A stretch of DNA of 64,000 bases from Defluviicoccus sp. (lineage in GTDB: Bacteria > Pseudomonadota > Alphaproteobacteria > Rhodospirillales > Defluviicoccaceae), in the NCBI GenBank assembly GCA_029624735.1, contig JARSSM010000025.1:1-64000 (forward strand). Direction: 5' to 3'. Position numbers and translations under genes: made by a program. Shown in pieces: positions 2,022-64,000 of the stretch. Position 1 is the first letter of the stretch. Each line of letters opens with the position of its first letter. The notes below the pieces were generated by a model. The model did not search any database, had not been told where the DNA came from, and was given only the letters and a program-made list of their open reading frames with translations.

Positions 2022-5000
2022 ATGAAAATCATCGACAACACGTCTTTGCTTCTCGGCGATGACCTCAAGGCGACGCTCGGACGTGGCGCTCGCCTCAAGA
2101 TCGCTGCTTCGTGCTTCTCGATCTATGCGTTCGAGGCGCTCCGCGCGGAGCTGTCCAAGGTGGAGAGCCTTCAATTCATCTTCACCGCGCCCACCTTTGT
2201 CCCGGTGGATGTGACGGACCGCCTACGCAAGGAACGACGCGAATTTTTCATACCCAAAGGGAGTCGGGAGCGCGGTCTCTACGGAACCGAATTCGAGATC
2301 CAGCTTCGCAATAAGCTGACGCAGCGTGCGGTCGCGCGGGAGTGCGCCGACTGGATTCGCAAGAAGGCACGCTTCAAGTCGAATACGACGAAAGCGCCGA
2401 TGCAACAGTTCGTCCACGCGGGCTCCGAAGCGGGCGATGTCGCCTATATGCCGATCAGCGGCTTCACGGCCGTCGACCTTGGTTATCAGAAAGGCGATGC
2501 CGTCTCCAACCTGGTCACGCGCATCGACGACGCCGCGCATACCCAAGTCTACCTGCAACTGTTCAATCAGATCTGGAACGACGAGGATAAGGTCAGCGAT
2601 GTCACCGCCGCCATTTGCGACCACATCGAGTCGGTCTACCAGGAGAACTCGCCCGAGCGGATTTACTTCCACATCCTCTACAATCTCTTCCAGGATTTTC
2701 TCGAAGAGGTCGATCAGGATGCCCTGCCTAACGACTTGACGGGTTACAAGGACAGTCTCGTCTGGAACAAGCTGTTTAACTACCAGCGGGATGCCGCGAC
2801 AGGGATCATCAACAAGCTGGAAATGCACAACGGCTGCATTCTGGCGGATAGCGTCGGCTTGGGTAAGACCTTCACGGCGCTTGCGGTGATCAAGTATTAC
2901 GAACTGCGCAATCGGTCGGTTCTGGTGCTGTGCCCGAAGAAGCTCGCGGACAATTGGCGCAACTACAACACCAACCTGACGACAAACATCTTCGCGAAGG
3001 ACCGCTTCAACTATGATGTCCTGAGCCATACCGATCTCTCGCGCACATCGGGCGAGTCCTTTGGCATCCCGCTGAACCGCGTCAACTGGGGCAATTACGA
3101 TCTCGTCGTCATCGACGAGTCGCACAACTTCCGGAACAACGACGTCTACAAGGACCGGGAGACCCGCTACCAGAAGCTGATGAACAAGGTCATCCGCGCC
3201 GGTGTGAAGACCAAGGTTCTGATGCTGTCGGCGACGCCGGTCAACAACCGGTTCAACGACCTGCGCAATCAGCTCGCGCTGGCCTATGAGGGGGATTCCG
3301 AGAACCTCAGCCGCAAGCTGAAAACCAAGACCGGGATCGAGGAGATTTTCCGGCGCGCTCAGAAAGCGTTCAACGCCTGGTCGGAATTGCCACCGCAGGA
3401 ACGAACAGCGGCTGCGATCCTGAAGGCCCTTGACTTCGACTTCTTCGAAATGCTCGACGCGGTGACCATCGCCCGGTCGCGCAAGCACATCGAAACCTTC
3501 TACGACACAAAGGATATCGGCAAATTCCCGCAGCGCCGAAAGCCTCTGTCATACCAGTGCCCGATCACCCATCGCTCCGACGTGCTCGGCCTCAACGACA
3601 TTTTCGCCAACCTCTCGGTGCTCAAGCTCGCAGTCTACGCGCCGATCAGCTACATCCTGCCAAGTCGGCTTCGGAAGTACGAAGAAATCTACGACACCCA
3701 GGTTGAGGGCGGCCGCGGCAAGCTGCGTCAGGCTGACCGCGAGCGGAGCCTCCAGGCTCTGATGACGACCAACCTTCTCAAGCGGCTGGAAAGCTCGGTC
3801 GAAGCCTTTCGGCTCACATTGCGCGCGCTGAGCGGCAACATCGCGCAGACGCTTCAGGCGATCGAGACCTACGAGCGCACGGGCGCCGCCGCGAGCGTCA
3901 CCGACCATCTCGGAGATCCGAGCTTCGATCCCGACGACGAAGATCTTGGCGGCCTCGACGAGTTCACGGTCGGCAAGAAGATTCAGATCAGCCTTGCGGA
4001 CATGGACCTGCCGTCGTGGAAGCACGACCTTGGCGCAGACCTCGCGTTGATCCGCGACCTTATCGTCTCGATGGACAAGGTCGGGCCAGAGGATGACGCG
4101 AAGCTTCAGCATCTGAAAACTCTCATCTCCCGCAAAGTCGATGGCCCGCTCAATCCCGGCAACAGGAAGGTCATCATCTTCACGGCCTTCGCGGACACGG
4201 CCAAGTACCTCTATGCCAACCTGGCCGCGGCGTTCCTCCAGTCGCACGGCCTGCACAGCGGCATGGTGACCGGCTCCGACGCGCCTAAGAGTACGCTGAA
4301 AAAGACCTATGACTTTCAGTCTTTGCTGACGCTCTTCTCGCCAAGGTCAAAGGACAAGCAGTTGATCCTGCCAAACGAGGCTGGCGAGATCGACATCCTG
4401 ATCGGGACGGACTGCATTTCCGAAGGGCAGAATCTTCAGGACTGCGACTATCTGATCAACTACGACATCCACTGGAACCCGGTGCGCATCATCCAGCGCT
4501 TCGGCCGCATCGACCGTATCGGGTCGCCCAATGCGCAAATCCAGCTCGTCAACTACTGGCCCGAAATCTCGCTGGACGAATACATCAATCTCAAGGAACG
4601 CGTCGAAAACCGCATGATGATCGCCGACGTCACGGCGACCGGTGATGACAATGTGCTGACCGCCAAGAGCAGCGACATCGCTTACCGGAAGGAACAGCTC
4701 AAGCGCCTCCAGGAGGAGGTGATCGAGCTGGAGGATGTGCGGGCCGGGGTCTCCATCACCGACCTCGGCCTCAACGATTTTCGCATGGACCTCTTGAACC
4801 ACATCAAGGAACACGGCGACCTTGAGCATTTGCCTAACGGCATGCATGCGGTGGTGCCAGCGCAGTCGGCGCTGGGATTGAAGCCAGGCGTGATCTTCGC
4901 GCTCAAGAACATCCACGACAGCGTGAACATCAATCAGCAGAACCGGCTGCACCCCTATTACCTCGTCTATGTCGGTCACGACGGTGGGGTCATCATCGAC

Positions 5001-5294
5001 CATACCGAAGTGAAGCGCTTGCTCGATCTGATCCGCACGAGCTGCAAGGGGCAGGCGGAACCGATCCGGGCGGTCTGCCAGCTGTTCAATGCGCGGACGC
5101 AGGACGGTCGCAAGATGGAGCAGTGTTCCGCGCTCTTGAGCGCCGCGATCCGCTCGATGATCGAGGTCAAGGAAGAGAAGGACATCGATAGCCTGTTCAG
5201 CGGCGGCCGGACCACGGCGCTGGTCCACACGATTGCGGGCATCGACGATTTCGAGCTGGTCGCTTTCCTCGTGATCGAGGAGGCGGCCACATGA
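2022..5294 (+). CDS. SNF2-type superfamily II helicase with degenerate PLD-like N-terminal domain
   Basis: The 1090-aa product carries helicase motifs: Walker A GLGKT (residues 279-283), DESH (365-368), MLSATPVNN (motif III), and motif VI QRFGRIDRIGS (825-835). The N-terminal 200 residues resemble the phospholipase-D-like domain often fused to such helicases, for example SGFTAVDLGY followed by VYLQLFNQIWND. However, the HxK nuclease signature is replaced by FVHAG, so that domain is probably catalytically dead. ATG 2022 is preferred over an upstream in-frame start at 1902 because 1902 lies inside the preceding gene and the product aligns from MKIIDN. It overlaps the DUF4391 gene by ATGA. Likely role: DNA translocase of the defence operon. 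Confidence 0.85.
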   Translation: MKIIDNTSLLLGDDLKATLGRGARLKIAASCFSIYAFEALRAELSKVESLQFIFTAPTFVPVDVTDRLRKERREFFIPKGSRERGLYGTEFEIQLRNKLTQRAVARECADWIRKKARFKSNTTKAPMQQFVHAGSEAGDVAYMPISGFTAVDLGYQKGDAVSNLVTRIDDAAHTQVYLQLFNQIWNDEDKVSDVTAAICDHIESVYQENSPERIYFHILYNLFQDFLEEVDQDALPNDLTGYKDSLVWNKLFNYQRDAATGIINKLEMHNGCILADSVGLGKTFTALAVIKYYELRNRSVLVLCPKKLADNWRNYNTNLTTNIFAKDRFNYDVLSHTDLSRTSGESFGIPLNRVNWGNYDLVVIDESHNFRNNDVYKDRETRYQKLMNKVIRAGVKTKVLMLSATPVNNRFNDLRNQLALAYEGDSENLSRKLKTKTGIEEIFRRAQKAFNAWSELPPQERTAAAILKALDFDFFEMLDAVTIARSRKHIETFYDTKDIGKFPQRRKPLSYQCPITHRSDVLGLNDIFANLSVLKLAVYAPISYILPSRLRKYEEIYDTQVEGGRGKLRQADRERSLQALMTTNLLKRLESSVEAFRLTLRALSGNIAQTLQAIETYERTGAAASVTDHLGDPSFDPDDEDLGGLDEFTVGKKIQISLADMDLPSWKHDLGADLALIRDLIVSMDKVGPEDDAKLQHLKTLISRKVDGPLNPGNRKVIIFTAFADTAKYLYANLAAAFLQSHGLHSGMVTGSDAPKSTLKKTYDFQSLLTLFSPRSKDKQLILPNEAGEIDILIGTDCISEGQNLQDCDYLINYDIHWNPVRIIQRFGRIDRIGSPNAQIQLVNYWPEISLDEYINLKERVENRMMIADVTATGDDNVLTAKSSDIAYRKEQLKRLQEEVIELEDVRAGVSITDLGLNDFRMDLLNHIKEHGDLEHLPNGMHAVVPAQSALGLKPGVIFALKNIHDSVNINQQNRLHPYYLVYVGHDGGVIIDHTEVKRLLDLIRTSCKGQAEPIRAVCQLFNARTQDGRKMEQCSALLSAAIRSMIEVKEEKDIDSLFSGGRTTALVHTIAGIDDFELVAFLVIEEAAT

Positions 5295-5998
5295 CGGCAG
5301 CCTTCTTCGACTATCCCAAGGCGGCCTCATTCGGTCGTGTCGTCCCCAAAAACCGGATCTATGAGCACGCCGGCGCCGGCACAGCGCTTCGGGACCTGTT
5401 CGTCACCCAGGTCGATCAGATCGTCTGGAAATACAAGCTCGCGCCGGAAACGACGAACCTCGCGGCGACGAAGGCCGTCAGCGAAATCCAGGTGTTCGGC
5501 ATCAGCCTGCGCACCGGCAAGCTCGACGACGACGTGTTGCGGGCCATCGATCGCGCAATTCCGTTCCCTTTGATCTTCGAACTCAGCTGGTCCGGGAAGC
5601 GCAAGGCGGTGGGCGCCTTCAAGCGGCCGAGCGAGGCGGACGCCACTAAGTGGGTTGTCAGTGCGTATTTTGCCACCGATTGGGCGCCAGACGATGCGCC
5701 GCGTCGGCCGCTGCCGGTCGCGCTCAATCTCGGCGGCCTCTACGACGCCCTCATCACGGCGCTGATGCCAGAGGTCGCCGCCGAAGCGGATCACACCGGC
5801 GAGGACATCCAGACACGCGTGGCGCGGATGGAGGCGATCCGGTCCAAGGCGCGGGAGGTGGACCGGATCAAGGCCCGCCTGGCTCGCGAGAAGCAGTTCA
5901 ACAAGCGCGTGGCGATCAATGCCGAGCTGCGCGCCGCACGGCAGGAACTGGAGCGCCTATCCGGCGCCGCTCCCGTCGGTGCCACGACGAATGAGTAA
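5291..5998 (+). CDS. DUF4391 domain protein
   Basis: The 235-aa product has the DUF4391 pattern: VPKNRIYEHAG near the start, then VDQIVWKYKLAPETTNL, SEIQVFGISL and IDRAIPFPLIFEL. The C-terminal 60 residues are highly charged and likely form a coiled coil (REVDRIKARLAREKQFNKR). DUF4391 has no established biochemical function that I know of. It is typically found beside SNF2-type helicases and Type III methyltransferases, as here. Start ATG 5291 overlaps the helicase stop (ATGA), implying translational coupling and suggesting a stable partner protein of the helicase. It could act as an adaptor between the helicase and the Mod-Res enzyme, but this is inference. Confidence 0.85.
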   Translation: MTAAFFDYPKAASFGRVVPKNRIYEHAGAGTALRDLFVTQVDQIVWKYKLAPETTNLAATKAVSEIQVFGISLRTGKLDDDVLRAIDRAIPFPLIFELSWSGKRKAVGAFKRPSEADATKWVVSAYFATDWAPDDAPRRPLPVALNLGGLYDALITALMPEVAAEADHTGEDIQTRVARMEAIRSKAREVDRIKARLAREKQFNKRVAINAELRAARQELERLSGAAPVGATTNE

Positions 5999-6008
5999 GG
6001 GAATGACG

Positions 6009-7982
6009 ATGGAAAAGCTAAAGATGCACAGCCCTGACCTGAGCCAGGAGAACATCGCGAAGATCCGCGACCTGTTCCCCGGCTGCGTGACGGAGGCGCG
6101 CGACGAGGCGACGGGGCAGCTGCGTCTGGCAGTGGACTTCGATCAACTGCGTCAGGAGTTGAGCGACCATATCGTTGAAGGACCGCATGAGCGTTATCGG
6201 TTGGACTGGCCCGGTAAGCGGGAAGCGTTGGCCGTAGCGAACGCCCCAATCAACAAGGCACTCCGCCCCGTTCCGGACGAGAGCTTTCAGTTCGAAGCGA
6301 CCAAGAACCTGTTTATCGAAGGCGATAACCTTGAAGCACTCAAGCTCATCCAGGACACTTATCTTGGACAGATCAAGCTGATCTACGTCGATCCTCCCTA
6401 CAACACCGGAAAGGATTTCATCTACCGCGACAGCTTTGCCGCAGATCAGAATACCCATGAAATTGCCTCAGGCGAACGAAGCGAAGAAGGCGCACGCCTG
6501 GTTTCGAACCCTGAGGGCAATGGTCGTTTTCACTCTAACTGGCTTACCATGATCGCGCCACGCCTCAGGCTGGCCAAGAACCTTTTGAAGCTTGATGGGG
6601 CAATCTTCGTATCCTGCGATGAGGGTGAACAGCCGCGGCTACGTCTGATCATGGACGAGATTTTCGGTCAGTCCAACTTCGTCGCCGACATGGTTTGGGC
6701 GGCCGGGCGCAAGAACGATTCGCGGCTGGTTTCGGTCTCGCACGAATACATCGTTTGCTACGCACGCGATTCAGAATACCTGCGCGAGAACGGGGTGACT
6801 TGGCGGCAGCGCAAAAAGGGTCTGGACGAAATCTATGCGCAATATGAGCGGCTAAAACGCCAACACGGAAACAACTTCAAGGCGATGACGGAGGGAATGA
6901 AAGATTGGTATCGGTCGCTGGCCGATAGCCATCCTTCGAAATCCCACAAGCATTATGCGCACGTTGATGGGCGAGGTATCTATTTCCCGGATAATATTTC
7001 TTGGCCGGGGGGTGGCGGTCCAAAGTATGAGGTGCTTCATCCAAGTACCAAAAGACCAGTGAAGGTGCCCTCACGCGGCTGGATGACAAGCGATCCGAAG
7101 CGCATGCAGGAGTGGATCGATGACGACCGTGTTCATTTCGGGGACGATGAAAATTCAGTGCCTTGCATCAAAAGCTATTTGAAGGACAAGGAGGTCCAGA
7201 CGCCATATAGCGTGTTCTACCAAGACGGCCGCGCCGCCTCGAAACGCTTGCGGGCGCTTATGGGCGGTGACCTTTTCGACTTTCCCAAGGACGAGTTGGT
7301 TCTCCAGGAGGTCATCGAGATGATGACCGATAACAGCGATATCATACTCGATTTTTTCGCGGGGTCGTCGACTACGGCGCATTCGGTGATGCTTCAGAAT
7401 GCGAAAGACGGCGCTAATCGTAAATTTATCATGGTCCAGCTGAATGAGGCGACGGCTGAGGACTCGGAGGCATACAAGGCCGGCTTCAAGACGATTCCAG
7501 AGGTCAGTCGCGAACGCATACGCCGCGCAGGCAAGCAGGTGCTTGACGGCGAATGCCACGTAAAATGGAACCGGGATGTCGGCTTCCGGGTCCTCAAGGT
7601 CGATACGTCCAATATGCAGGACGTCTACTATCGCCCGGACCAGGTCGATCAGAGGGACCTGCTCACCGCCGTCGATAACATAAAGCCCGACCGTACCCCT
7701 GAGGACCTGCTGTTCCAGGTGCTCGTTGATTGGGGTGTGGATCTGACGCTGCAGATCCGACGCAAGACGATACACGGCAAGACCGTGTTCTTCGTGGACG
7801 GAAATGCGCTGGCAGCCTGCTTTGAGACCGGGGTGACGGAGGAACTCGTGAAGGAGCTTGCCGGCCGCGAGCCGCTGCGCGTCGTGTTCCGCGACAATGG
7901 TTTCGTGTCCGACGCCGTGAAGATTAACGTCGAGCAGGTCTTCCGCCAGGTCTCTCCCGGCACCGACGTCAAGTCGATCTGA
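6009..7982 (+). CDS. mod: Type III restriction-modification DNA methyltransferase (Mod)
   Basis: The 657-aa product is a beta-class amino-methyltransferase. DPPY (residues 128-131, motif IV) precedes the SAM-binding DFFAGS (448-453, motif I), the order typical of Type III Mod subunits. The segment between these motifs should hold the target recognition domain. ATG 6009 is chosen because AAGGGA sits 6 bp upstream; ATG 6003 and ATG 5991 are in frame alternatives, the latter inside the DUF4391 gene. Mod would methylate N6-adenine in an asymmetric site and supply site specificity to Res, whose gene begins 10 bp downstream. The central part (roughly 6700-7200) is noticeably AT-richer than its flanks, as expected of an exchanged recognition domain. 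Confidence 0.93.
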
Positions 7983-7992
7983 GGGGGCGACC

Positions 7993-10900
7993 GTGAAGCT
8001 GAAATTCAAGGTCCAACCCTACCAGACGCAGGCGGTGACCGCGGTCGTGGACTGCTTCGCCGGGCAGCCGATGTCGAACGGTATCACCTACCGGATCGAT
8101 CCCGGCCGGAAGGCGCAGACAAGCGCCTTCGAGGAAGGGTTCAAGAACGCCGATCTGGCGCTGACCGAGCTTCAGGTGCTTGCCAACATCAAGGATGTCC
8201 AGAGTCGCCAGAACCTGCCCGTTTCCGACAAGCTGGTCGCCAACGCTGGCTGCCGGATCAACCTCGACATCGAGATGGAGACGGGGACCGGCAAGACCTA
8301 TTGCTACATCAAGACGATCTTTGAGATGAACAAGCGCTACGGCTGGTCGAAGTTCATCATCATGGTGCCGTCGATCGCCATCCGCGAGGGCGTCCACAAG
8401 TCGCTGCAGATCACCGCCGACCATTTCACCGAGAGCTACGGAAAGAAGGCGCGCTTCTTCATCTACAATTCCAAGCGGCTGCACGAGCTGGAGAGCTTCT
8501 CGTCGGACGCCGGCATCAATGTGATGGTCATCAACATCCAGGCGTTCGCGGCCCGCGGCGCCGACAATCGACGCATCTACGAGGAGCTGGACGACTTCCA
8601 GTCGCGCAAGCCCATCGACGTGATCGCCAGCAACCGGCCGATCCTGATCCTCGATGAGCCGCAGAAGATGGAGGGCGCGGCCACGATGGAGGCGCTGCCG
8701 AAGTTCAAGCCGCTTATGATCCTGCGCTATTCGGCCACCCACAAGACGCAGCATAACCGCGTTCACCGGCTCGATGCGCTCGACGCCTATAACCAGAAGC
8801 TGGTGAAGAAGATCGCGGTCCGGGGCATCCAGACGCGCGGGCTCGCCGGCACCAACGCCTACCTCTATCTGGAGGGAATCGAGATCTCGAAGAAGGCGCC
8901 GGTGGCGCGGATAGAGATCGAGGTGAAACTCGCGAGTGGCGAGATCAAGCGTCAGCTCAAACGATTGGAGTTCCGCGACGACCTGTTCGCAAAGTCCGAA
9001 GAACTGGACCAGTACCGCGACGGCTTCACCATTTCCCAGATCGATGCGCGCAACGACACGGTCGAGTTCACCAATGGCGTGGTGCTGCGCGCCGGAGAGG
9101 CAACGGGCGACGTGTCCGAGCGCGACATCCGGCGCATCCAGATGCGCGAGACGATCAAGGCGCATCTCGACAAGGAGAAGCAGCTCTTCGCGCAGGGCAT
9201 CAAGGTGCTGTCGTTGTTCTTCATCGACGAGGTGGTGAAGTACCGCGACTATGCGCAGCCTGACGAGAAGGGCGAGTATGCCCGCGTGTTCGAGGAGGAG
9301 TACGAGCTTCTCAAGGCGGAGTATCTGGCTGAGTTGGCGATCGATAACGAAGCCTACCGCAAGCACCTGTCGGGCATCGATGCGGCCAAGACGCACAACG
9401 GTTATTTCGCGATCGACAAGAAGACCAACCGGCTGAAGGATCCCGCCGTCGGGGCGAGGTCAGTCGATTCAGACGACGTGGACGCCTACGACCTGATCCT
9501 GAAGGACAAGGAACGGCTGCTGTCCTTCGCAGAGCCGACGCGGTTCATCTTCTCGCACTCCGCGCTGCGTGAAGGGTGGGACAGTCCCAACGTCTTCGTC
9601 ATGTGCATGCTCAAGCACAGCGACAATACCGTTTCGCGGCGCCAGGAAGTGGGCCGCGGGCTGCGGCTGTCGGTCGATCAGAACGGCGATCGCATGGACA
9701 ACCCGGCAGTGGTCCACGATATCAACGTGCTGACCGTTGTCGCGAGCGAGAGCTACAAGAACTTCGTCGCCGGCCTACAGAAGGAAATCGCCGACACGCT
9801 GACCTCTCGGCCGCGCAAGGCGAGCGAGGCGTATTTCACCGGAAAAACGATCAGTACAGATACAGGCTCGATCGAGATCACGCCGGCCATGGCGAAGCAG
9901 ATCTACCGCTACCTCGTGAAGAACGACTACTCCGACGACACGGATCAGATCACTAGCGCTTACCATCAGGCGAAGGAATCCGGAAGTTTGGCGGCTTTGC
10001 CGGACGAGCTGAAGGCGCACGCCGATCAGATCTTCCAGATCATCGACAGCGTATTCAGCGACGCGCAGCTGCCGAAGGTGGAGGACGGCCGCAAGCCGAA
10101 GACCAATCCGCTCAATGAGAATTTCGAGAAGAAAGAGTTCCAGGAGCTCTGGCGACGCATCAATCAGAAGGCCGTCTATCGGGTCGAATTCGACTCCGAC
10201 GAGTTGGTTCGCAAATGCGTGAGCGCGCTCGATAGTCAGCTTCGCGTGACGCCGCTCCAGTACACGGTCCAGACCGGCATCCAGGGCGACGGGCTGACCG
10301 ATGAGCAGCTCAAGGCGGGTGATGGGTTTGCCCTTACAGGCTCAACGACCGAGCGCGGAGGATCAGTCCATTCGCTCGTGAAATATGACCTCCTCGGGAA
10401 GATCGCCGAAAACACGGAACTCACGCGCAAAACCGCAGCCGAGATTTTGACGGGCATCCAGGCCAGCGTGTTCGGACAGTTCAAGGAGAACCCCGAGCAC
10501 TTCATCGCCGAGGCATCGCGGATCATCGCCGAGCAGAAGGCGACGATGGTCATCGAGCGGCTGGCCTATGACGGGCTGTCCGAACGCTACGACGTCGACA
10601 TTTTCACCGCGAACCAGACCGGCCAGGACTTTTCCAAGGCGTCGGCCAAGCTCAAGCGGCACGTCTACGACTACGTGGTCACCGACTCCGAAATCGAGCG
10701 CAAATTCGCAGACCAGCTCGACGTTGCGAGTGAGGTCGTGGTTTACGCCAAGCTGCCGCGCGGCTTTCTGATCCCGACACCAGTGGGCGACTATAACCCC
10801 GACTGGGCGATTTCCTTCAAGGAGGGACGCGTTAAGCACATCTACTTCGTCGCGGAGACCAAGGGCACCATGTCCACGATGAAGCTCCGCGAGATCGAGA

Positions 10901-11031
10901 ACACCAAGATCGCTTGCGCCCGGAAGTTCTTTGATGAGATCGGTCAGCGTGTGTCCGAGGATCGGGTCAAGTATGACGTGGTTACCAGCTATGAGAAGCT
11001 CATGGATATTGTGGGGCGCGCTGCCGCATAG
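7993..11031 (+). CDS. res: Type III restriction enzyme Res subunit (helicase-endonuclease)
   Basis: The 1012-aa product shows Walker A ETGTGKT (residues 96-102), a DEPQ motif II (221-224), YSATH (motif III), REGWD (motif V region) and [11 protein letters not shown] (549-559, motif VI). A C-terminal PD-(D/E)XK site is visible: D937 in NPDWA, E955 and K957 in VAETKG. Start is GTG 7993 behind a GAGGGGG site. The protein would use ATP hydrolysis to move along or diffuse on DNA and cut when two Mod-bound sites communicate. Length and motif order match the family, and nothing appears truncated, so the Mod-Res core is probably functional. Confidence 0.93.
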
Positions 11032-11057
11032 AATGAGAGGGGTCCGCGTCGCGTTGG

Positions 11058-14000
11058 GTGGCGGTGGTATCGATCGCTGACTGGATCGGCCCACAAGGCT
11101 TGGGGGGTAAGGTGCCAGTCGTCATTTGGCAGGGAACGATCACACTTCCGGCGCTGCCGCTTCGCAAGAAGCGGATCGGCGGCAATCTCGTCGCGCAGCA
11201 GTTGTTTCTTGGCGCGACGTGCAAAGCGCAGGTCTTCGCTAGCGACGTCAAGGGTCATGACCTGATCCGCACCAATCTCACCGGGCCCTATCGAGAGCTG
11301 TTCCTACGGCGCAAGGCAGCGCGGCGTCGACCCGATGCGGTCCCAGCAGTCACATGCGCGGAGGACGGAGACGCCGCCGACTGGTCCGAGTTCATATCGG
11401 TCTCCTGGGACGTTGGTGCAATGGATAGCTATTGCGCCACGCCCGACGAGGTGCGGTCAGCGTGGGCCAACCAGTTCGACTTCCGGGAAGAGGACGAAGA
11501 AGCCGGGCACGCCGGCCTGCGGACGCCGCAGATCGGCGCACTGCATGCTATCTCCGCGCACTTTGCCGTCGGTAAGGAGTTTGAGCCCGCGACCGTCGTG
11601 CTGCCTACCGGGACGGGAAAGACCGAGACCATGTTGGCAACGCAAGTCTATAGACGGCTAGGCCGTTCGCTGGTCCTCGTGCCGAGCGACGCGCTAAGAT
11701 CACAGATCGGCGGCAAATTCACGACGCTCGGCGTGCTGCCGGACGCGCAGGTATTGCCGCGCGAGGTCGCGCGACCGTGGGTTGCGCAGATCAGTCGTGG
11801 CCTCCGCTCCGCGGAGGAAGCACAAGCGCTGCTCGACGCCGCGAACGTCATCGTCGCGTTGCCCAACGTACTCGAAGCATCGGATCCCGACGCTGTCACC
11901 GTCCTGGTCGCCGGCTGCACCGACCTGATCGTCGACGAAGCGCATCACGTTACGGCTGACACTTGGAATGCGATCCGCGATCGCTTCAAGGAGAAACGCG
12001 TCCTCCAATTCACTGCCACGCCGTTTCGCCGCGACGGTAAGCGCATCGATGGCAAGATCATTTTTAACTACAAACTCGGCGATGCCCAGGCAGCCGGCTA
12101 CTATCGGCCGATCACGCTGAGGACCGTCGAGGAGTACGGCGACGACGACGCGCGCGACCGCGCTATCGCCGAGGCCGCCATTACCGTTCTGCGGCGCGAC
12201 CGTGACGAACTCGGCCTTGACCACCTGCTGATGGCGCGGACTCGCAGCAAGGAGCGCGCTGAAAGCGTATCGGCGATTTATGCCGAACTGGCCCCCGATT
12301 TGAAGCCGGTGGTCGTCTATTCCGGAGCCGGACGCACGCTCATCAATCGCGAGGCGCTCGCGAACGTTTTGGATCGCGGTGCAGACGGATCGCGCATCGT
12401 TGTCTGTGTCGACATGCTCGGCGAAGGGTTCGACCTCCCGAATCTCAAAGTCGCAGCGCTCCACGACGCTCACAAGTCGCTCGCGATCACGCTTCAGTTC
12501 ATCGGGCGCTTCACGAGAAAGGGGGCCTGGGGCGAGATCGGCGAAGCGACCGTCGTGGCCAACATCGCCGATCCGAGCGCCGAGAAGAAGCTGGCGAGCC
12601 TCTACGCGGAGGGGGCCGACTGGGATCAGCTAATCCGTCGGCTGAGCGAGGATCGCATTGGCACTGAGCTGCGACTACAGGAGGTGGTAATCGGGCTCAA
12701 GGAGACGGGCGACCTCGGCGCGCAGCTATCACTCTGGAATCTGAGGCCAGCTTTGTCGGCACAGTTCTTCCGAACGACCTGCGTCGCTTGGACGCCGCTC
12801 GCCTATCAGACGGTGCTGCCGGCCAGCGCCGAGAGTTGGTTCGCATACCATCAGGCCGAGAATGTATTGGTGGCGGTCGTGCGCCGCGCGGCGGACGTGA
12901 ACTGGGGAAACTATCAGAACGTCCTCGATACGATCTACGATCTGCTCATCCTTCGCTGGGACCAAAAGGCCGGCGTTCTGGCGCTCTACGCAAGCGATTA
13001 TAACGCGCTTCGTTCGGAGAAGATGGCCGCGGCGGTGACCGACGACGCTACCAAGCTAGTCGCGGGGACCCCGATCTTCAATATCTTGAACAACGTCGAG
13101 CTTCCGCTGGTGAAGAGCCTCGGCTCAGCCCGGATTGGCGCGATCAGTTTCACCTCCTATTTCGGTCCGAACGTGACGGAGGGGCTGGCGAACATTGAGA
13201 AGGCGGAGGCCGAGCTGAACAACATCGCCTGTCTCGGTTACGAGGATGGTGAGCGGGTACTCTGGGGCGGAACGCAGCGACGAGGCAAGATTTGGCAGGC
13301 CAAGGCCGGTACGGTATCGGAGTGGATGGAATGGACCGCCTCGACTTGGGCAAAGGTCACCTCTGAGGACGAGCTCGGTACCAACATCACCCGCGACTTC
13401 TTGCGACCACAGCGAATGGACGGGCCGCACGCCTCCCATCCGATCGCGGCGCAGTGGGGCGAGCAGGCGCAGATGCGCCTAGGAGATCGTCAGTCGATCA
13501 TCTTTGGTACCGCTGAAATCCCGCTGATCATGGTCGACCTCGATGTTGTGGGCGTGGAGGCGGATGGCGCTATCGCGCTGAGGCTCAGCGCGGACGGATT
13601 GTCGTCAGACTATCGCTTGACGATCTCGCAGCATTTGCCCGGCGGCTATTCGCACCAACATGTCGCCGGACCGGAAGTCCTTTTCCGTAAGTCGCGCGAC
13701 GAAGCGCTGCCGCTGGCAGATTACCTGCAGAAGGATCCTTTCATCATCCGCTATGCCGACGGGACTTACTCCTACAATTGCTACCATATCTCCGCAAATC
13801 TTGCGGCCGGAGCTTTCGATAGGGAGCGGCTTGAGGCATGGGACTGGACAGGCATCCCACTCAACAGGGAGTCGATGCACAAAGCGCGCGATCAGGCCAC
13901 GATCCAGTTTCGAACCTATGAGAGGCTGCGCGACGAGTACGACGTTGTCTTCAATGACGACGGGCATGGCGAGGAAGCGGATCTCGTCTGCCTCAAGGAC

Positions 14001-53483: not shown

Positions 53484-54953
53484 ATGCCCGGAACGAACCC
53501 GATGAGCGTTGAGGCCAGCCTTCCCGTCTTTACCGTGACGGAGATTTCGCTAACGCTCAAGCGCTTCATCGAACAAACGTTCGACCGCGTTCGCGTCCGC
53601 GGAGAGATCAGCGGTTTGAAGCGCGCGGCGTCTGGGCATCTCTACTTCGCGCTCAAGGATCAGGACTCGGTGCTGGATGCCGTCTGCTGGCGCCCGGCGG
53701 CGCAAAGGTTCAAGGCCGCGCTGGACAACGGCCTGGAGGTGATCGTCACCGGCCGGCTCACCAGCTATCCGGCCCGCTCGCGCTATCAGATCCTTGTCGA
53801 TGCGATCGAGCTTGCCGGCGCCGGTGCGCTGTTGAAGCTCTTGGAGGATCGGCGGCGCAAGCTCGAAGCGGAAGGCCTGTTTGCCGCTGAGCGCAAGCGG
53901 CCGATCCCCTACCTGCCGGATGTGATCGGCGTCGTCACCTCGCCGACCGGCGCAGTGATCAAGGATATCCTGCATCGCCTTGCCGACCGCTTCCCGCGCC
54001 ACGTGCTTCTGTGGCCGGTCGCCGTCCAGGGCCAGGGGGCTGCCGAACAGATCGCAGCCGCCATTGAAGGCTTCAACCGGCTGCCCGCGGGCGGCGCGGT
54101 GCCGCGGCCGGATGTGCTGATCGTCGCCCGTGGCGGCGGCAGCCTCGAAGACCTCTGGGCCTTCAACGAGGAGATCACCGTGCGCGCCGCCGCTGGCTCG
54201 GCAATCCCGCTGATCGCGGCCGTCGGCCACGAGACCGACACCACGCTGATCGATTTCGCCGCCGACTTAAGGGCACCGACACCCACGGCCGCGGCCGAAC
54301 TCGCCGTGCCGGTCCGCGCGGAGCTGATCGCCCGCGTCCTTGGCCTGGCCAGCCGGCAGATCAGCGGCTTAAGCCGTACGCTGGAGGAAGGTCGTACGCG
54401 GCTGACGGCGGCCGCGCGCGGACTGCCGCAGCCGGTCCGGTTGCTGGCACTCGCGCGCCAGCGGCTGGACGACTGGTCGGAACGGTTCGACAACGCGCTC
54501 ACCGTTGGCCTGCAGGCGCGACAGCAGCGGCTGCAGCAGGCAGTCGCGCGCCTCGTGAGCCCGGCGGAGCGTATCGCGCGCGATCGTGAGCGGCTGGCAA
54601 ATGCGGCGCGGGGACTGGACCGGGCGCTAGAGCAGATCCTGAAGGACCGCCGCAGCCGCCTGCAGCAAGCGGGCGCGGTGCTGGCCAGTTGCTCCTACGA
54701 GCGCGTGCTGGAGCGCGGCTTTGCCCTTGTGCTCGATCGCGCCGGCCATGCGCTTGCGAGCGTTGCGAGCCTCACGCCCGGGCTTGCCGTGCGCCTGCGC
54801 CTGCACGACGGCGAGGCCGGTGCCCGCATCGAAGACGGAGCTGCGACCGAAGGCGGTTCCCCGCAACCGGCGAAGGCTCCATCACCGCAGCCCGCCAGCC
54901 GGCGTGCTCCCGGCCGCGGCAAGCCTCCCGGTGGTCAGGGCAGCCTGTTCTGA
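53484..54953 (+). CDS. xseA: Exodeoxyribonuclease VII large subunit
   Basis: The 489-aa product has the OB-fold head (RVRGEISGLKRAASGHLYFA, LKDQDSVLDAVCWR), the catalytic domain (GVVTSPTGAVIKDILHRLADR, VGHETDTTLIDFAADLRAPT) and a long coiled coil. A low-complexity tail rich in P, A and G ends QGSLF. ATG 53484 or ATG 53502 may be the start. The xseB gene is not in the window. Confidence 0.95.
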   Translation: MPGTNPMSVEASLPVFTVTEISLTLKRFIEQTFDRVRVRGEISGLKRAASGHLYFALKDQDSVLDAVCWRPAAQRFKAALDNGLEVIVTGRLTSYPARSRYQILVDAIELAGAGALLKLLEDRRRKLEAEGLFAAERKRPIPYLPDVIGVVTSPTGAVIKDILHRLADRFPRHVLLWPVAVQGQGAAEQIAAAIEGFNRLPAGGAVPRPDVLIVARGGGSLEDLWAFNEEITVRAAAGSAIPLIAAVGHETDTTLIDFAADLRAPTPTAAAELAVPVRAELIARVLGLASRQISGLSRTLEEGRTRLTAAARGLPQPVRLLALARQRLDDWSERFDNALTVGLQARQQRLQQAVARLVSPAERIARDRERLANAARGLDRALEQILKDRRSRLQQAGAVLASCSYERVLERGFALVLDRAGHALASVASLTPGLAVRLRLHDGEAGARIEDGAATEGGSPQPAKAPSPQPASRRAPGRGKPPGGQGSLF

Positions 54954-59842: not shown

Positions 59843-60169
59843 TCACGCGGCCCGCGGCCGCACCGCGCGGGCGATCGCTGCGCCGTGGTCGCGCTCGGCG
59901 ATGGCCAAGTCATAACTCTGCTGCAGGTTCATCCAGAACCGGGCCGAAGTGCCGAAATAGCGCGCGAGCCGGAGCGCCGTATCCGCGGTCACGGCGCGCT
60001 TGGCGTTGAGGATTTCGGTGATGCGGTTGGGCGGCACGTCCAAGGCACGGGCGAGCGCGTTGGCGGAAACGCTGAGCCCGGCCAGCTCCTCGCCCAGGAT
60101 CTCGCCCGGGTGGATCGGCGGCAGGTTCAGGACCGGCCCCTCGTCAGTGGTAATCGGTGATCTCGACAT
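59843..60169 (-). CDS. higA: HigA-type antitoxin
   Basis: The 108-aa product has the HigA pattern IHPGEILGEELAGLSVSANA, a helix-turn-helix (LARALDVPPNRITEILNAKR), and DTALRLARYFGTSARFWMNL. It binds the toxin HigB and the operon operator. Its start overlaps the higB gene by 26 bp. Confidence 0.93.
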   Translation of the reverse strand: MSRSPITTDEGPVLNLPPIHPGEILGEELAGLSVSANALARALDVPPNRITEILNAKRAVTADTALRLARYFGTSARFWMNLQQSYDLAIAERDHGAAIARAVRPRAA

Positions 60170-60422
60170 CGAAAGCGTCTCCCTTGCGGAAGGTGAAGCA
60201 GATCCGCCACTGCTCGTTGATGCGGATGCTGAATTGGCCTTGACGCGTGCCGCGCAGCGCCTCGAAACGATTGGACGGCAGCATCATCAGGTCCTCGATC
60301 CGCTCCGCCGCGTTGAGAATGACGAGCCGCCGCTGCGCCTGCTTTGCAAACGCGTGGAATTCCTTCACCCGCTCGCCGGCAGCGAAGGCGGCACTGCGCC
60401 GATCCCGGAACGACCTGATCAT
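60144..60422 (-). CDS. higB: HigB-type mRNA interferase toxin
   Basis: The 92-aa RelE-superfamily product shows MIRSFRDRRSAAF, LVILNAAERIEDL and QFSIRINEQWRICFTFR, the usual HigB segments. The ribosome-dependent RNase would be held by HigA. ATG 60422 is used; an in-frame start at 60788 runs into the NACHT gene and is spurious. A palindrome over the promoter suits autoregulation. Confidence 0.93.
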   Translation of the reverse strand: MIRSFRDRRSAAFAAGERVKEFHAFAKQAQRRLVILNAAERIEDLMMLPSNRFEALRGTRQGQFSIRINEQWRICFTFRKGDAFDVEITDYH

Positions 60423-60489: not shown

Positions 60490-63400
60490 TCATGGCTGGA
60501 GCGGGGCAAGCACACAGCGAAAGCCGACGCCCCAGTCCCTGCCCTCGGGCCGGTCCCCGCCCCGGTTGGTCGCCCGCAGGTACCAGGACGAGACGTTATA
60601 GGAGCCACCACGCAGCACGCACGGCGCATCCGGCTTACTGATTTCTTCCGGATCGTAAAGGCTGTCACACCACTCCCAAACGTTGCCGGCGAGATCCTCG
60701 AGGCCGAGCCGGGCCTGGCGGGAGCGCGGGAACAGCCCCACGGTGGAGGTGACGCCGAGGCCGGCCACACGGCTGTTGCAGATCCCATCCTGCCAGTCGT
60801 TGCCCCAGGGGTATTCGCAGCCCTCGGGACCGCGGGCTGCGGCCTCCCATTCCCGCTCCTTCGGCAGGCGACCGCCAGCCCAGCGGCAGCAGGCGTCGGC
60901 CTCCCAGAAGCTCACCCCCACCACCGGCTGGTTCGGGCCGTTCCAGCGCCGGTTATTCCAATATCTTGGCTCGATCGCCCCTTCCTTCTGAAGCCACGTC
61001 CAGCCGGCGAACGACCAATGCTCCCGCCTGGCATACCCACCGGCGTCCATGAACGTCCGGTACTGGCTGTTGGTAACCGGATAGCGGCCCAGGAGGAACG
61101 GGGCCTTGATCTCGACCGGTTCTCCCTTTTCGCCATAGGGGTAGGTGCCGGACGGAACCTCGACGTAGGCACGCTCATCGCGTAGGTCAAGAATGCGCGG
61201 ATCGCCCGCTCTACCAAGGATCAGCGCCAGCGCGTTCCGCGCTTGCAATTCGATCTCGTCGTCGATCGCCGCAAGGACGAGACGGCGAAAATCCTCCGTT
61301 AAGCGCTCCGGTACGGCATACTTTTTCGCTAGGCACAGCTCCAGCGCTTCGGCAATGAACACCGCCGGCGCCGGCTTGGCCTTGACCGCGGTCCGGTCCT
61401 GATCGGCAATCAGGCGCTGCAGCAGGTGCAGGCCCCACTGGGCATCCTTGATCGCGATCTGGGCGGCGAACAGAAACAGGAGCGTCGAACGCCACTCAGG
61501 CGTCGCGCTACGTTCGCGGAACAGCCGGTCGAGCGCATCGCCGGTCCGGGCCAAGCGTTGTGCCGCCAAGAATTCCTGAAAGCTGAGGTGATAAAAACTA
61601 GCGCGCTCGCCCGACCTCGGCACCAGCAGGCCCGAGCGCGTCAACAGCTCCTCGCGCTGGATCGCCGCCCCGACCGAACCCTTTTCGTAAGCGGGGTTCA
61701 GCTCGGCAAAGCGGGCAAGCCACTGCTCCACTTCGACCCAGCTGATTTCCGCCGCCGGGATCGTTCTCGGTGCGTCCTCCTCGCCTTCGTGCATGCCGAG
61801 CGCAATCGCCTCCAGCCGCCGCAGCACCGGTTCCCGCTCGCGGACCTCGCCGGGGTAACGATTGTGCAGCACGCCAGCAACGATACTCTTGTAAAGATCG
61901 TAGCGGTCATCGGGCAGCCGGCCACCATTGTCGTAGAGGACGCACAAGGCAGTCAGCAGCATCGGATTCTCAACTAGCGGCGCCAGAACGTCGCGGCTGC
62001 GGATGGTCGCGATCAACTCGGGAATAACCTCGACTTTGCCGAGAGTGTGGAACCAACGACTGACGAAGAGATCCTGCAGTGCCCTGGGTAGTGGTTCCAA
62101 CGCCGCTGCCGGCAGCCGCAGGCGGTGCAGCCTGGCTTCGTCGAGGCCGTAGGGGCGGCTGGTCAGCAGAACCCGGTTGCCGGCCCGCAGCCAATCGGGC
62201 AGGGCGTCGGCGAGGCCGCTCAGCAGCAGTTCGCGTGGGTAGACAGTTGCGCCCTCGCGCGTGTCCGAGACCGGCACCTCGTCCAGACCATCGAGCAGCA
62301 CAAATGCGCTGCCAGCCTTGAGGTGCGCCTTGACGGTGCCGGCCGAGAGACCTTCGAGGCGGCCTGCCCAGGTGGCGAGCGCATCTTCCAGATCGCCCCT
62401 GTGCCACGTCCGGCCGCCGCGGCCGGAGTCCATGTCGGTCCCGAAATCGCGCAGCGGCACGAGCAGCGGCAGCCGGCCGCGCAACGACTTGGGCTCCGGT
62501 TCGGCGAATTCGTCCGGCGCCAGCACCGCATGGCCGATCGGCGCGGTGGCAATGCTCTGCAGCACCGCCCAGCGGCAGAAGGTCGACTTGCCCGCACCGG
62601 CCGGAGCCGGAACGTACAGCGACTCCGCGTTCAGCCTCCGCAGCAGTGAGACTGCTTGTTTTTCCTCCGCCTCGGGGCGTGCTCGCGCCTTGCCACGAGC
62701 CGCCACCTCAGGCGTTGCCGCCGGCCGAGTCAGTGCCGGTACATAGACTTGGCTCAGCGTAATCGCCTGGCCCTTCTGAATGTCCTGCCCCAAGAGGGAA
62801 ACGTCAGCGCAGGTCCGCCGCAGCCACGCGACATATTCGGGCGGAATCGTGGGCTGGAGAGAGGGCGCTTCGCTATCGCCGCCCCGTGAGGCAGGCGGCA
62901 GCAGCCGATGCAGGATCCTCTCGAGGTGCTGGGGCAGCAACGGCTTGAATTCGGCAGCGGTCGCGTAATCGTTGACGCCGGCTTTGATCGAGCCGTCAGG
63001 ATTGCGAAACTGGGCAAAGAAGGCCTCTACCCGTTCGAACTGCTCTTCCTTCTCCTTCTTCTGCGGGTCGCGGAGACCGATCATGGGCTCTTCCGTCCGC
63101 CGGTAGACGAGCACCGTCGGCTTCGGCTCCCGCGTTGAGTTGACCGCGTCCTCGTACTCCCATTCGGTGCCGGAGAGGTAACGCGTGCCGTCGGGTTTGA
63201 GAATTGTGCCGGGCAGCGGTGTGCCCATCCGCGACCACAGGAGGACGATGACAATGTCGCAGGTAGCCGGCCGCGGGCGGGCGGCGTTGACCGACTCTTG
63301 CGCCGTCTCGGTCGCCAGCATCGGGATCCGCGCCGCCGGGTCATCCCAGGCGATCAGTTCAATCGCGATCTGACCGAGGAAACCAGGGCGATACGGTAAT

Positions 63401-63519
63401 TCGTTCTTGATGAACTCTCGTGCGAACGCCCGCTCCTCGGCCACGTCGCCGGGCGAGGAGAGGAAGATCCGCACCAGCGGCACGTTTGGCCGTTGCGTGT
63501 CCGTCTCCTTGGCTGCCAT
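60490..63519 (-). CDS. NLR-like STAND NTPase: DUF4062-like head, NACHT, FGE-sulfatase/C-type-lectin tail
   Basis: The 1009-aa product has three parts. The head (about 1-200) begins VRIFLSSPGDVAEERA and includes ATCDIVIVLLWSRMGTPLP, typical of DUF4062-like domains. The NACHT ATPase has P-loop GAGKST (308-313) and Walker B with DGLDEV (410-415), followed by a helical region. The tail (about 795-1005) is a formylglycine-generating-enzyme fold: LLGRYPVTNSQYRTFMDAGG, GRLPKEREWEAAARGPEGCE, AGNVWEWCDS, VLRGGSYNVSSWYL. Bacterial NACHT proteins include antiphage sensors; the FGE tail would be the sensor. ATG 63519 is used. No partner gene overlaps it. Confidence 0.88.
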   Translation of the reverse strand: MAAKETDTQRPNVPLVRIFLSSPGDVAEERAFAREFIKNELPYRPGFLGQIAIELIAWDDPAARIPMLATETAQESVNAARPRPATCDIVIVLLWSRMGTPLPGTILKPDGTRYLSGTEWEYEDAVNSTREPKPTVLVYRRTEEPMIGLRDPQKKEKEEQFERVEAFFAQFRNPDGSIKAGVNDYATAAEFKPLLPQHLERILHRLLPPASRGGDSEAPSLQPTIPPEYVAWLRRTCADVSLLGQDIQKGQAITLSQVYVPALTRPAATPEVAARGKARARPEAEEKQAVSLLRRLNAESLYVPAPAGAGKSTFCRWAVLQSIATAPIGHAVLAPDEFAEPEPKSLRGRLPLLVPLRDFGTDMDSGRGGRTWHRGDLEDALATWAGRLEGLSAGTVKAHLKAGSAFVLLDGLDEVPVSDTREGATVYPRELLLSGLADALPDWLRAGNRVLLTSRPYGLDEARLHRLRLPAAALEPLPRALQDLFVSRWFHTLGKVEVIPELIATIRSRDVLAPLVENPMLLTALCVLYDNGGRLPDDRYDLYKSIVAGVLHNRYPGEVREREPVLRRLEAIALGMHEGEEDAPRTIPAAEISWVEVEQWLARFAELNPAYEKGSVGAAIQREELLTRSGLLVPRSGERASFYHLSFQEFLAAQRLARTGDALDRLFRERSATPEWRSTLLFLFAAQIAIKDAQWGLHLLQRLIADQDRTAVKAKPAPAVFIAEALELCLAKKYAVPERLTEDFRRLVLAAIDDEIELQARNALALILGRAGDPRILDLRDERAYVEVPSGTYPYGEKGEPVEIKAPFLLGRYPVTNSQYRTFMDAGGYARREHWSFAGWTWLQKEGAIEPRYWNNRRWNGPNQPVVGVSFWEADACCRWAGGRLPKEREWEAAARGPEGCEYPWGNDWQDGICNSRVAGLGVTSTVGLFPRSRQARLGLEDLAGNVWEWCDSLYDPEEISKPDAPCVLRGGSYNVSSWYLRATNRGGDRPEGRDWGVGFRCVLAPLQP

Positions 63520-63765: not shown

Positions 63766-64000
63766 ATGAAACTCTCGGATCAGGTCAAGCCCATCAGCTA
63801 CTTGAAGGCCCACGCGCCTGAGGTCATCCGCAACCTGACCGAGGGCCGGGAGCCGGTGATCATCACCCTGCATGGTGAGGCCAAGGCGGTGCTCCAGGAC
63901 ATCGCCAGCTACGAGCAGACGCAGGAGACGCTGGCACTCCTGAAGATCCTCGCTCTCGGCAACCGCACTATCGAGGACGGCAGGGTTCGCCCCGTCGGCG
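63766..64000 (+). CDS. Phd/YefM-family antitoxin, cut by window edge
   Basis: The visible 78 codons read MKLSDQVKPISYLKAHAPEV, then NLTEGREPVIITLHGEAKAV and LQDIASYEQTQETL, the fold of Phd/YefM antitoxins that bind RelE/ParE or Doc toxins and their promoter. ATG 63766 follows CGGAGG. The stop and probable toxin gene lie past the window. Confidence 0.9.
   Translation, partial: MKLSDQVKPISYLKAHAPEVIRNLTEGREPVIITLHGEAKAVLQDIASYEQTQETLALLKILALGNRTIEDGRVRPVG

Follow-up and report, generated by a model that had tools for sequence, protein, structure and literature searches.

A putative NLR-like anti-phage receptor of Defluviicoccus sp. with a lectin-type tail probably written by a diversity-generating retroelement since lost

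Described NACHT-lectin sensors and DUF4062 proteins

Diversity-generating retroelements (DGRs) are known to diversify NACHT-lectin proteins, and targets whose DGR is remote or incomplete have been described as well, according to the available passages of PMC10907252. These passages (related: PMC7159879) present the STAND/NACHT-CLec proteins of multicellular bacteria as putative antigen sensors with a central NACHT or nSTAND1 module and a C-terminal FGE/CLec tail. The receptor characterized here, encoded in a 64,000-nucleotide stretch of Defluviicoccus sp. (contig JARSSM010000025.1; the whole stretch is called the window below), has the same central and C-terminal parts. In that source, DGR-variable positions are almost exclusively codon positions 1 and 2, and the tails of both those sensors and the receptor vary at these positions. 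In both families the N-terminal effector is exchangeable as well, with TIR and phosphoesterase domains among the versions. Unlike the described sensors, the receptor resides in a genome in which no DGR template, DGR-type reverse transcriptase (RT) or Avd was found, and its head is a DUF4062 domain, of which the searched passages of PMC10907252 and PMC7159879 make no mention. In the same passages of PMC10907252, the FGE/CLec tails of STAND proteins are sensors by proposal only. NACHT sensors diversified by DGRs have been suggested to give bacteria a kind of adaptive immunity.

A defence role of bacterial DUF4062 has been demonstrated in a preprint (PMC13174449) on Swarozyc, a DUF4062 TIR-like NADase defence system that shares the DUF4062 head and an auxiliary sensing part with the receptor. 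The auxiliary part of KpSwz in that study is a small HTH/winged domain binding the phage portal, whereas the receptor has a NACHT module and a lectin tail instead. In human TEP1, NWD1, NWD2, and NPHP3, DUF4062 adjoins a NACHT ATPase as it does in the receptor (PMC13174449), but their C-terminal parts are WD40 or other repeats and not an FGE/lectin tail. The receptor therefore joins an effector of the DUF4062 (TIR-like NADase) type to a lectin-type NLR sensor, with a head-NACHT neighbourhood like that of TEP1 and the NWD proteins. NACHT proteins defend other bacteria against phages, and the available passages of PMC12169576, among others, describe anti-phage bNACHT proteins with a NACHT core, an N-terminal effector, and a C-terminal sensor, as in the receptor; their effectors and sensors differ from those of the receptor. 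Our literature search found no published phage test for any DUF4062-NACHT-FGE protein and no paper combining DGR, NACHT, and the word FGE-sulfatase, the nearest being PMC10907252. New in the present locus are the DUF4062 head on a DGR-type NACHT-lectin protein and a syntenic allele pair that bears the DGR mark without the machinery. Such a pair, with a sister species still equipped, would allow asking whether useful specificities get fixed after exploration.

Architecture of the receptor

The receptor gene is present in one copy in its genome, starts with ATG, and retained exactly its initially assigned coordinates. The features identified in the window were as follows.

60490..63519, minus strand, DUF4062-NACHT-FGE protein of 1009 aa (Pfam, NACHT motifs, AlphaFold model alignments)
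63145..63471, minus strand, DUF4062 (TIR-like) head, residues 17-125 (PF13271, E 4.5e-4)
63151-63174, minus strand, GTE.E motif in the DUF4062 head (E119, E121), GTE being invariant among aligned relatives
61540..62655, minus strand, NACHT ATPase module, about residues 289-660 (motifs and structure match; limits approximate)
62581-62607, minus strand, Walker A APAGAGKST, residues 305-313 (NACHT motif)
62278-62301, minus strand, Walker B VLLDGLDE, residues 407-414 (NACHT motif)
62152-62169, minus strand, LLTSRP, residues 451-456 (NACHT motif of the LTSRP type)
61570-61593, minus strand, winged-helix motif YHLSFQEF, residues 643-650 (NACHT motif)
60511..61164, minus strand, FGE-sulfatase / C-type-lectin tail, residues 786-1003 (PF03781, E 6.6e-43, above the cut-off)
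60514..60600, minus strand, variable region of 29 codons, residues 974-1002, a putative DGR variable repeat without a template (identity drop, substitution pattern, overlap with the template adenines of a relative)
60144..60422, minus strand, HigB-like toxin adjoining the receptor gene (PF05015, E 7.5e-14)
59843..60169, minus strand, HigA antitoxin (TIGR02607, E 6.2e-30)

The order of a DUF4062-like head, a NACHT ATPase, and an FGE-sulfatase tail, proposed in the earlier note from the sequence alone, was borne out by Pfam, motifs, and AlphaFold alignments, with two profiles under their cut-offs: DUF4062 reached 20.8 bits over residues 17-125, just under 24.7, and the NACHT profile matched residues 403-491 with E 1.2e-3. 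The NACHT motif set was complete. The AlphaFold model of the whole receptor (mean pLDDT 68) aligned with NOD2, NLRC4, and NLRP3 with Z of 14-15 over about 250 residues. By its motifs and fold, the receptor is a NACHT/STAND NLR-like protein. It is predicted to be an anti-phage alarm protein built like the NLR immune receptors of animals and plants, and a defence role is plausible by analogy with the proteins described above.

The head carries the DUF4062 signature, at its score just under the cut-off, together with a conserved Glu, E119 and E121 being the candidate counterparts of E97 of KpSwz. Modelled alone, it gave a pLDDT of 61 and a best Foldseek TIR match of E 0.019, and it had no sequence match in PDB. 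The PADLOC candidate PDC-S60 matched only the head of the receptor.

TvpA of Treponema denticola is a DGR target that possesses its own DGR and has no NACHT fusion. In the AlphaFold model, the tail of the receptor aligned with EgtB, FGE, and TvpA, the last with Z 15.5 over 189 residues (PDB 2y3c). The end of the tail reads VLRGGSYNVSSWYLRATNRG...VGFRC (about 60514-60618). The earlier note had taken the many NNC codons there as a possible sign of adenine mutagenesis, and this argument failed: codons ending in C made up 47.5% of the last 40, compared with 38 ± 9% in windows of the same length along the gene and 44-53% in housekeeping genes nearby. From within the receptor gene alone the excess is not significant, and the tail uses NNC codons at an ordinary rate; the informative DGR signal emerges only when relatives are compared.

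Homologs of the receptor and the retroelement of G001

Homologs of the NACHT-FGE body were identified in three genomes of the same genus (G001, G002, and G003) and one of the same family (G007), and were 59-74% identical to the receptor from about residue 214 onward. Their N-terminal parts differed: DUF4062 was found in the receptor gene, in G002, and in Acidobacteria Mor1, a calcineurin-like phosphoesterase in G001 and G003, and TIR in G007. Judging from these sequences, the N-terminal effector is exchanged among close homologs. In the FGE part, close homologs shared a mean pairwise identity of 0.65-0.74 as far as residue 960, beyond which the value dropped to 0.40-0.43.

The syntenic locus of G002, the closest relative, has flanks mostly 95-99% identical to this genome. 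The receptor gene itself is a mosaic, with identity to the G002 allele (L046) varying between 62 and 99%, and residues 551-750 were closer to G001 than to G002. The locus may be read either as an island of allele exchange or as one of very fast evolution.

In G001, an intact DGR is flanked by a homolog of the NACHT-FGE body. Its parts were located on L034 as follows.

3949-7374, plus strand, target 1
7417-8550, minus strand, RT (GLPIGNLTSQ and YVDDFALF motifs)
8549-8893, plus strand, Avd (scores exceeding both the NCBIfam and the Pfam cut-off)
about 9163-9291, minus strand, template repeat of about 129 bp
9406-12183, minus strand, target 2, TIR-nSTAND1-FGE

Within the matched stretches, all mismatches between the template and the variable repeats fell on template adenines, 20/20 for repeat 1 and 21/21 for repeat 2. 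The RT and Avd of G003 are the same as those of G001 (89% and 97%, respectively) and both are intact. At about 11855-12258 of L036 in that genome, the template was matched in part only and one target was out of frame at its end; this DGR looks partly decayed. RT, Avd, and an FGE protein were also found together in G009. No template was found near the Acidobacteria, Planctomycete, and G008 homologs in the stretches examined. One contig of G008 bears two FGE tails (L041, 2900-7054 and 7334-8815), whose differences were 10, 7, and 1 at codon positions 1, 2, and 3; that genome gave no RVT_1 or Avd match, and the tails are probably another orphaned pair.

The substitution pattern of the tail was then investigated in one close pair, the syntenic alleles of this genome and G002, over the 29 tail codons; the pairwise counts are complicated by the recombinant, mosaic nature of the receptor gene. 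Changes at codon positions 1, 2, and 3 numbered 11, 10, and 4, giving a ratio of positions 1 and 2 to position 3 of 21:4 in the tail against 225:236 in the FGE core plus NACHT (p 7e-4). Replaced codons were NNC in both alleles in 8/12 cases in the tail and 29/175 elsewhere (p 3e-4), while third positions differed in 4/29 tail codons and in 236/689 elsewhere (p 0.026). When the pair was compared with the G001 template, differences occurred at 16/26 template-adenine sites and at 9/67 other sites (p 8e-6); the difference sites had been chosen without use of this template. As a control, the EgtB proteins of five relatives, which adopt the same fold and for which no DGR targeting is known, showed tails 83-90% identical and a position ratio of 0.29-0.75, the reverse of the receptor pattern; being an enzyme, EgtB controls only imperfectly for diversifying selection. 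The concentration of changes at positions 1 and 2, the kept third bases, and the overlap with template adenines, together with the targeting of homologs by the intact DGR of G001, suggest that the variable region is a descendant of a DGR variable repeat.

State and origin of the variable tail

The earlier note had proposed a search of the genome for an RT and a template repeat of about 100 bp, and neither a template nor a DGR-type RT or Avd was found in the assembly (28 contigs, completeness 98.9%). In an A-tolerant scan of the whole genome, in which A was accepted in place of any base of the tail, the receptor gene itself was the sole match; a search of the same kind recovered the G001 template with 0 mismatches. 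Blastn for a template gave short chance matches only. Nothing convincing was obtained in this genome with the G001 DGR RT or Avd as the query, and an Avd profile search of the genome gave 0 matches. Avd is usual in DGRs but not universal. In G002 (98% complete), no DGR-type RT, Avd, or template was found either. The absence of a DGR from this genome is likely, short of proven because completeness is 98.9%. None of the parts that would mark the tail as the target of an active DGR, namely the template, RT, and Avd, was detected in this genome.

The sole RT of this genome is a 244-aa protein on contig 15 (about 53700-54440; L012 7703-8437), another contig than that of the receptor. Its class is uncertain, with CRISPR-associated and retron models scoring closest among those for RTs. 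It was ruled out as a DGR enzyme: it has ALPYGFVQSP for GLPIGNLTSQ and YVDDISIS for YVDDFALF, and its similarity to DGR RTs is weak.

We consider it probable, with some reservation, that the gene encodes a putative NLR-like (STAND/NACHT) anti-phage receptor whose FGE/C-lectin sensor has a variable region written by a DGR in the past, and that this DGR has since gone. Of the earlier proposal that the tail is a DGR target, the part concerning the family stands, given the G001 DGR and the adenine-site pattern between this genome and G002, and the part concerning ongoing diversification in this genome is unsupported because no template, DGR-type RT, or Avd was found. A past DGR would have written the variable region of the C-terminal sensor and later been lost from the lineage, leaving the region orphaned. 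The lectin tail would bind a ligand of a phage or another invader, the NACHT module would oligomerise, and the DUF4062 head, for which we infer NADase activity by analogy with the Swarozyc/TEP1 preprint (PMC13174449), would hydrolyse NAD+ and stop the cell. The tail would represent a frozen receptor specificity, with ordinary mutation and allelic recombination (the gene is a mosaic) as its sole remaining sources of change. Several points weigh against this account: the main test draws on one close pair and 29 tail codons, some of the same codons would be struck if a binding surface were under diversifying selection, the mosaic gene complicates the pairwise counts, a DGR was possibly missed by the 28-contig assembly, and the DUF4062 and NACHT scores are under the Pfam cut-offs. 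As a tentative generalization, which we hold with less than even confidence, DGR-written tails may outlive their DGR: specificities are explored, the machinery is lost or left, and a chosen tail is kept germline-like while effector and body still recombine.

A DGR located elsewhere, on an unassembled stretch, on a plasmid, or in part of the population, may instead still diversify the tail in trans. Remote and incomplete DGRs with still-diverse targets appear in the available passages of PMC10907252, the assembly is fragmented into 28 contigs, and the few third-position differences in the tail are as expected of recent copying from similar templates. Such an activity is nevertheless unlikely, as no template, DGR-type RT, or Avd was found in this genome (98.9%) or in G002 (98%), and all three would have to be missing from both assemblies.

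Alternatively, this allele may never have been acted on by a DGR, and the pattern may have arisen from diversifying selection on the binding surface combined with allele shuffling. The absence of the machinery from this genome, the structural tolerance of the FGE/C-lectin tail to change, and the recombination of the receptor gene are consistent with this. Amino-acid selection, however, leaves unexplained both the third-position C kept in the replaced codons and the changes on the template adenines of another species, and in G001 the DGR demonstrably targets homologs that share this body; we regard this explanation as quite unlikely.

It is highly improbable that the tail functions as an enzyme, be it formylglycine-generating, EgtB-like, or of a similar kind, and not as a sensor: although EgtB, OvsA, and FGE are the closest solved structures, the EgtB, SenA, and OvoA models scored far under their cut-offs (best 121.8 against 360 bits), as did all NCBIfam equivalogs for EgtB and the formylglycine-generating enzyme, and the RGGS...RA stretch, which we take to hold the FGE catalytic cysteines, reads RGGSYNVSSWYLRA in the receptor, with no cysteine, and is the most variable part of the tail.

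The surroundings of the gene were also inspected. The HigBA pair (59843-60422) lies directly downstream and is kept with the receptor in G002 at 92-99% identity, the HigB-like toxin itself being 95-99% conserved. The toxin is part of the same small island as the receptor; its role there is unproven. Upstream, 63601-64200 is poorly conserved relative to G002, and an ORF at 63766-64000 of the window, which runs past the window end, reads as a Phd-type antitoxin-like protein. A further ORF, near a contig end (L011, 12447-14073), looks like an integrase or transposase, has a repeated start (MGRAGVLQEIRRMRFEALLDRHERGELSQVEAAEMLGMSERTFRRWRDRL), and is probably an insertion element.
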